Source: Gemmatimonadaceae bacterium (GTDB taxonomy: Bacteria; Gemmatimonadota; Gemmatimonadetes; Gemmatimonadales; Gemmatimonadaceae). From it: 64,000 nt of DNA. The stretch spans positions 186,001-250,000 of the forward strand of contig DASXKV010000033.1 of the NCBI GenBank assembly GCA_036496605.1, written 5' to 3'. The first letter of the stretch is position 1. Every line of letters starts with the position of its first letter. The notes beneath the pieces were generated by a model that saw only the letters and a program-made list of their open reading frames with translations, was not told the DNA's origin and did not search any database. This document shows, piece after piece, positions 30,020 to 30,822 of the stretch. Made by a program: the position numbers and the translations under genes.

Positions 30020-30216
30020 TTCTCCCCCCCTTGGTTCGCCGTCCGAGATTCAGAGGGCAGGGCTTATTCCGGGAGTTAAGCAGCCGACGGATGGGTTAAT
30101 CATTGGTGGTGTCCCGCTGGAGGACGCCCTCGTGTCCTCGATGCGGGATATGGCAGACTACATTGTCAGGCGGCGCGGCTCGCGCGATTTTCACCCCTTC
30201 TCGACCGGAGCGTTCA

Positions 30217-30822
30217 ATGAACCAACGGGCAGTATCCCATGTGAGCGCCGTTGTTCTCGGCCTTACGCTGACCCTAACGGCAACCTCGCGGGCCGCTGCA
30301 CAACAGCCGGCTGCACCGGCGACACCAACGCCGGAAGTCGGTACGATGGCGCCCGACTTTGCCATCACCGGCGCCACCCGCTTCGGTCTGCTGCGTGACT
30401 CCATTCGGCTCGCGGACTTTCGCGGACAGACCGTCGTGCTCGCGTTCTTCTTTAAGGCGCGGACCAAAGGCTGAACGATCCAGATGGAGGCGTACCGTGA
30501 TCAGTACGCCACGCTCTTCAACAACGGCAAGAAAGTCGTCGTTCTGGGTGTGAGTGTCGATCCCGACACTACGCTCGCGAACTGGGCTCGCGAATCGAGC
30601 TTCCCCGTGCTGTTTGGCAGTGATCCGGGTCAGAAAGTTGGAAAGCTATATGGCTCGACCCGCGGCGACCTCGATACGCGGAATCTCTTCGTCATCGGAC
30701 CTGACGGGCGCATCGTTTTCAAGCAAGTTCCCGTGAATGTTCTCTCGCAGCAGGAGTACGCGGATCTTGCCAAGGCAGTGGCTCGCTCGGTCGGCACGAC
30801 GGTGACTGGAGCCACGAAGTAA
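30217..30822 (+). CDS. exported peroxiredoxin, probable selenoprotein (TGA = Sec86)
   Basis: 201 codons if TGA 30472-30474 is read as selenocysteine. ATG 30217 (GGAG upstream) begins a signal peptide ending TSRAAAQ. A peroxiredoxin fold of the BCP/AhpC-TSA group follows: VGTMAPDFAI, VVLAFFFKARTKG, then TGA, then TIQMEAYRDQY. Family members read K-A-x-T-x-G-C-T-x-Q here, so the stop replaces the peroxidatic Cys exactly. The same frame stays open to 30822 with good homology (VVVLGVSVDPDTTLANWA, LFVIGPDGRIVFK). No Cys is present in the mature chain, so no resolving Cys: a 1-Sec enzyme reducing peroxides in the periplasm. A SECIS-like hairpin follows. The alternative is a nonsense mutation. Confidence 0.85.
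30489..30510 (+). promoter_or_regulatory. bacterial SECIS-like hairpin
   Basis: A perfect 7-bp stem, GGCGTAC (30489-30495) with GTACGCC (30504-30510), encloses the loop CGTGATCA. It begins 14 bases after the in-frame TGA, and the loop begins 21 bases after it. Known bacterial SECIS elements have a short stem-loop 16-37 bases after the UGA with a G among the first two loop bases; here G is the second. It would recruit SelB with Sec-tRNA to the ribosome. Confidence 0.8.

Follow-up and report, generated by a model that had tools for sequence, protein, structure and literature searches.

A conserved SECIS-like hairpin after the in-frame TGA of a predicted selenocysteine peroxiredoxin gene in Gemmatimonadota

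In E. coli, SelB carrying Sec-tRNA(UCA) binds an mRNA hairpin beside a ribosome-bound UGA. The limits on such bacterial SECIS elements are restated in PMC13188914, and the hairpin described here, which lies in a 64,000-nucleotide stretch of DNA from a Gemmatimonadaceae bacterium (the window), falls within all of them. An upper stem of 4–16 bp and an apical loop of 3–9 nt are allowed, and the hairpin has 7 bp and 8 nt; one of the first two loop positions is expected to be G, with G or U a frequent next base, as in its loop CGTGATCA; the distance from UGA to loop is 16–37 nt, here 21 nt; and the free energy is at most −7.5 kcal/mol, here −13.7 kcal/mol (centroid −11.8). The hairpin thus resembles the bSECIS model of PMC13188914 in its 7-bp stem, 8-nt loop, G then U, 21-nt spacing and energy, but it differs in being almost invariant in sequence over 155 copies and in having no Rfam match, of which there was none at the gathering score in the 64,000-nt window.

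Among selenoproteins, the TxxU peroxiredoxins already form a recognised family (PMC13188914, PMC9312934 and PMC1088965), so the protein encoded in the window is not a new kind. It shares with this type (Prx/PrxU; NCBIfam NF040737) the AhpC/TSA domain and a peroxidatic Sec in TxxU (TKGU in the window), but it scores below the NF040737 cut-off (44.7 against 270 bits), lacks the motif Pro, has a predicted export signal and, once mature, would contain no further Cys. The motif PxxxTxxU is called highly conserved in PMC13188914; of the full motif PxxxT/SxxC (or U) the window protein has the T and the U, with Phe in place of Pro. Neither bacterial SECIS elements nor TxxU peroxiredoxins are new; what is unusual here is the predicted export signal, the absence of other mature Cys and the loss of the motif Pro in 112 of 155 Sec copies. 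By sequence, the nearest solved relatives include the Rv2238c-type peroxiredoxin (AhpE, a 1-Cys enzyme) and archaeal Bcp peroxiredoxins, and the window protein differs from these in having Sec for Cys and no motif Pro. Judged by titles and the beginnings of abstracts, no description of a Gemmatimonadota Sec peroxiredoxin was found in the open-licence literature, PMC8318568 and PMC8938466 included, and neither 'gemmatimon' nor 'gemmatimonad' occurs in the main text, as far as it was accessible, of PMC13188914, PMC9312934, PMC5029168, PMC1794560 or PMC5330540.

The gene and its hairpin

With the TGA at 30472–30474 read as Sec, the peroxiredoxin gene (30217–30822, + strand) forms a single frame of 201 codons from an ATG at 30217, preceded by GGAG at 30207–30210, to a TAA at 30820–30822, in which Sec is residue 86 of 201 and occupies the peroxidatic Cys position. 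Standard ORF calling cuts it at the TGA into 30103–30474 and 30484–30822. The product matched AhpC-TSA (PF00578, E 7.3e-23), the best Foldseek matches of its predicted structure were peroxiredoxins, placing it in the AhpC/TSA domain family and fold, and in alignment with solved peroxiredoxins the TGA fell on their peroxidatic Cys. The AlphaFold model had a mean pLDDT of 78 and a pTM of 0.72 and was poor near the active site (block means of 55–58 around residues 81–100), so nothing is concluded from it on active-site geometry. An export signal is predicted at 30217–30306 (approximate end) from a hydrophobic N-terminus that reaches to near AAAQQ, and Sec86 is the sole Cys or Sec residue of the mature protein. 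The flanking ORFs are presumably aconitase-like, glycerate-kinase-like and agmatine-pathway-like, and no obvious redox partner was seen among the neighbouring ORFs when the ORF list was judged by eye.

The initial annotation had described a perfect 7-bp stem, GGCGTAC/GTACGCC, lying within coding sequence, separated from the TGA by 14 nt and closed by a loop with G at its second position. Direct reading bore out each of these points. A 14-nt linker (30475–30488, codon +3 being CAG) leads to the 5' arm GGCGTAC (30489–30495), the loop CGTGATCA (30496–30503) and the 3' arm GTACGCC (30504–30510), all on the + strand and in frame with the peroxiredoxin gene; both arms are supported by sequence, fold and homologue comparison, and the loop by sequence and homologue comparison. 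A 49-nt segment containing the hairpin folded with z = −1.16, and 23 of 200 shuffled sequences were at least equally stable, which is not significant. Of 1494 TGA triplets counted over the two strands of the window, 18 were followed by a Watson–Crick stem of at least 7 bp within the bacterial SECIS limits. By itself, the window sequence sets the hairpin beyond chance only weakly.

The TGA column and the selenocysteine machinery

A family-level search gave a match in 162 of 179 genomes and a phylum-level search in 309 of 395; among the matches listed, loci were fetched and the codon at the Sec column was read in 207 copies. It was TGA in 155, TGC in 48 and TGT in 4, and never TAA or TAG, so that TGA and Cys codons (155 and 52) share one column. 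The arrangement of TGA and hairpin is kept over many Gemmatimonadota species. Within a single genus-level group (g6), copies of the two types are paired in tandem, one with TGA beside one with Cys (L070, L072, L078, L082, L084, L085, L087, L092 and L093).

The genome from which the window comes has the complete machinery for Sec insertion. SelB (360.9 bits, model positions 1–580 of 581), SelA (542.2 bits), SelD (376.7 bits, with one TGA) and tRNA-Sec (78.4 bits, anticodon tca, that is UCA) all scored over their cut-offs. Across the family, tRNA-Sec was matched in 104 of 179 genomes. In the 157 genomes with a read codon it was found in 93 of 102 Sec-type but only 8 of 55 Cys-type genomes (Fisher p 1.6e-22). 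It was not matched in nine genomes with a Sec peroxiredoxin, four of which (G006, G094, G119 and G123) are rated 93–98% complete.

This association bears directly on the possibility of selenium-free decoding, in which the UGA would undergo readthrough or reassignment, for example to Trp or Cys. Such a reading is very improbable, as the TGA tracks tRNA-Sec across genomes and aligns with Cys, and among the nine AhpC-TSA matches in the window's own genome it is present in one, the window gene.

A search of the same genome did not recover formate dehydrogenase alpha, a selenoprotein common in bacteria: no match scored over the cut-off and none had an internal stop. The SelD of this genome is itself a TGA gene (L266:1501-2475, − strand, contig C9; U29 of P0002) adjoining tRNA-Sec. 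As in the peroxiredoxin, a conserved hairpin comes after the TGA, GGGTC CGGGT GACCT, whose CGGG loop start is common to 10 of the 140 distinct peroxiredoxin loops, but both stem and loop are shorter than those of the peroxiredoxin. Among 30 SelD loci read, 26 had TGA and 4 Cys, and the Cys-type loci (L372, L381, L382 and L386) have an altered hairpin region. In the same four genomes (G116, G118, G104 and G103) the peroxiredoxin still has TGA and tRNA-Sec is present, so that Sec may now be used there chiefly for this protein.

Stem, loop and codon choice in TGA and Cys copies

The inner six stem pairs form in 154 of 155 TGA copies as against 2 of 52 Cys copies, and the full seven in 138 of 155 as against 1 of 52. 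The loop G is present in all 155 TGA copies. The hairpin had been proposed to match the bacterial SECIS consensus, on condition that TGA homologues keep the stem and the loop G; these counts and the limits given above sustain the match, but the loop G by itself proved not to be diagnostic, because it is part of an Arg CGN codon that is also found in Cys copies. What distinguishes the two groups is the third loop base, directly after this G, which is T or G in 155/155 TGA copies and 7/52 Cys copies. The 140 distinct Sec sequences carry the loops CGTGATCA (126), CGGGATCA (10), CGTGACCA (3) and CGTGATAA (1). Copies with the CGGGATCA loop, in which the third base is G and not T, have the peptide QHEAYRD (L104, L105, L107, L114, L121, L122, L124, L125, L126, L129 and L348), and they may show what SelB tolerates.

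The codons that build the hairpin are frozen in the TGA copies. TAC at +7 occurs in 155/155 TGA copies (25/52 Cys copies), GAT at +9 in 152/155 (14/52) and TAC at +11 in 153/155 (30/52), and CGC at +8, used by 45/52 Cys copies, is found in none of the 155 TGA copies. In the linker, codon +3 is CAA in 135/155 Sec copies and 7/52 Cys copies. Flanking codons are mostly variable in both groups. The encoded residues are held as well: A at +6 in 153/155 TGA copies, Q at +10 in 154/155 (22/52 Cys copies) and A at +12 in 154/155 (42/52).

It had also been suggested that homologues be compared for compensatory third-position changes, and these were found. With the T of the TGA counted as 0, the outer pair is 17:38. 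In the 140 distinct TGA sequences it is G-C in 75, T-A in 27, C-G in 24 and A-T in 1, and is unformed in 13 (A.A 9, which includes a clade, T.C 2, G.G 1 and A.G 1). It is thus formed in 127 of 140, as against a mean of 59.8 on random re-pairing, and none of 10,000 shuffles reached 127. The switches fall mostly at third codon positions, as in AAT...GCA, AAC...GCG and GAG...GCC. Double changes further in are rarer: GGCATAC/GTATGCC (L024) has A-T in place of G-C inside the stem, and GACGTAC/GTACGTC (L084) has A-T with the amino acids altered on both sides.

On a FastTree tree built from columns outside the hairpin region, the outer pair underwent 19 changes, of which 11 were double-sided from pair to pair, 6 went to unpaired and 2 returned to paired. 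The count of double-sided changes does not by itself set 17:38 apart from control column pairs (controls up to 13/45), but the share of pairable tips does, at 139/155 as against 31–98/155 in the controls. The tree supports five independent contrasts between Sec and Cys copies, in which stem and loop differ in the expected direction or tie (p 0.06 at best); for the inner stem an average of 4.8 of the 5 agree with the expected direction and none oppose it.

The hairpin could be a mere by-product of the codons for AYRDQYA, with no function as RNA. This peptide is near-palindromic in GC-rich codons, because of which the same stem arose 8,611 times when the window peptide was recoded synonymously at random 200,000 times, and Cys copies do keep several single pairs, for example 21:34 in 46 of 51 distinct sequences. 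Such an origin would nevertheless not lead one to expect all seven pairs in only one of the 52 Cys copies, the compensatory third-position switches or the freezing of CGT/CGG, GAT and TAC in TGA copies, nor that A+6 and Q+10 should occur jointly in 152/155 Sec copies and only 4/52 Cys copies, and we give it almost no credence. With a peptide so nearly palindromic, a Cys ancestor could readily have given rise to the hairpin. Sequence comparison shows that selection at synonymous sites maintains the stem and loop of TGA copies, both of which are absent in Cys copies, and the homologues argue overwhelmingly that the hairpin is beyond chance. A pseudogene or sequencing error, in which the TGA is a true stop truncating a Cys peroxiredoxin, is just as hard to credit: a recent nonsense mutation would also appear as one TGA in an otherwise open frame, but the column holds TGA or Cys codons and never another stop over 207 copies, the half of the protein downstream is kept, synonymous constraint after the TGA is strong, and TGA copies so numerous and widespread refute it.

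The hairpin is, then, almost certainly a working bacterial SECIS, with the UGA read as Sec at the catalytic site of a probably exported peroxiredoxin. By analogy with E. coli, SelB carrying Sec-tRNA(UCA) would dock on the hairpin next to the ribosome-bound UGA, which would then be decoded as Sec rather than as stop.

The predicted protein and the wider distribution of the hairpin

The product would have a peroxiredoxin fold with Sec86 as its sole Cys or Sec and, from its hydropathy, would probably be exported; a hydrophobic N-terminus is seen in 144 of the 154 Sec copies for which a start could be located. Peroxides would most likely be reduced outside the cytoplasm by a 1-Sec enzyme using an external reductant. 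Catalysis of the 1-Sec type is suggested because no second Cys lies beyond position −50 relative to Sec in either Sec (0/154) or Cys (0/51) copies.

The motif Pro, seven residues before Sec (30451–30453), is Phe in the window gene. In Sec copies this position is F in 62, P in 43, Y in 41, I in 4, V in 3 and S in 2, and in Cys copies it is always P (52/52). In tree-paired comparison an average of 1.8 of 5 contrasts differ; Pro loss tracks Sec in few independent contrasts, so a causal link is only a suggestion. If it holds, Sec may have eased a constraint that is classic for the active site.

Tentatively, these features may be joined in a single reading: an exported signature selenoprotein of Gemmatimonadota with a single Sec and no other mature Cys, in which Sec made the active-site Pro dispensable, the hairpin fixed A+6, Q+10 and A+12, and which, where SelD has Cys, may be what chiefly keeps the Sec machinery in place. 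Because a single gene family in a single phylum offers 155 TGA and 52 Cys copies, the locus is an unusually clean natural experiment on the bacterial SECIS, one that shows which bases matter. The locus also points to a predicted extracytoplasmic selenoenzyme that ordinary ORF calling cuts in two.

The bare hairpin pattern GCGTACCGKGAYCAGTACGC, which does not include the TGA, was searched for in 84,980 public species genomes. At least 119 loci were found, and among the matches listed a TGA lies exactly 18 nt upstream in 117 of 119, the exceptions being in Streptomyces (L188) and Bryobacterales (L249); about 2 chance matches are expected by arithmetic on uniform base composition. No match to the pattern was found in viral contigs. 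Most of the 117, among the matches listed, are named as Gemmatimonadetes, Gemmatimonadota or Longimicrobiales MAGs. Other names are Acidobacteria (L159), ANGP1 (L208) and Gammaproteobacteria (L196 and L223); these bins may carry wrong labels.

Sec peroxiredoxins are already known in Anaeromyxobacter (PMC1794560). An Anaeromyxobacter locus (L232:520-999, + strand) encodes a different peroxiredoxin, with 38% identity over 131 columns, and has the same 22-base hairpin after its TGA, an identity that may be read as transfer, convergence or deep conservation.
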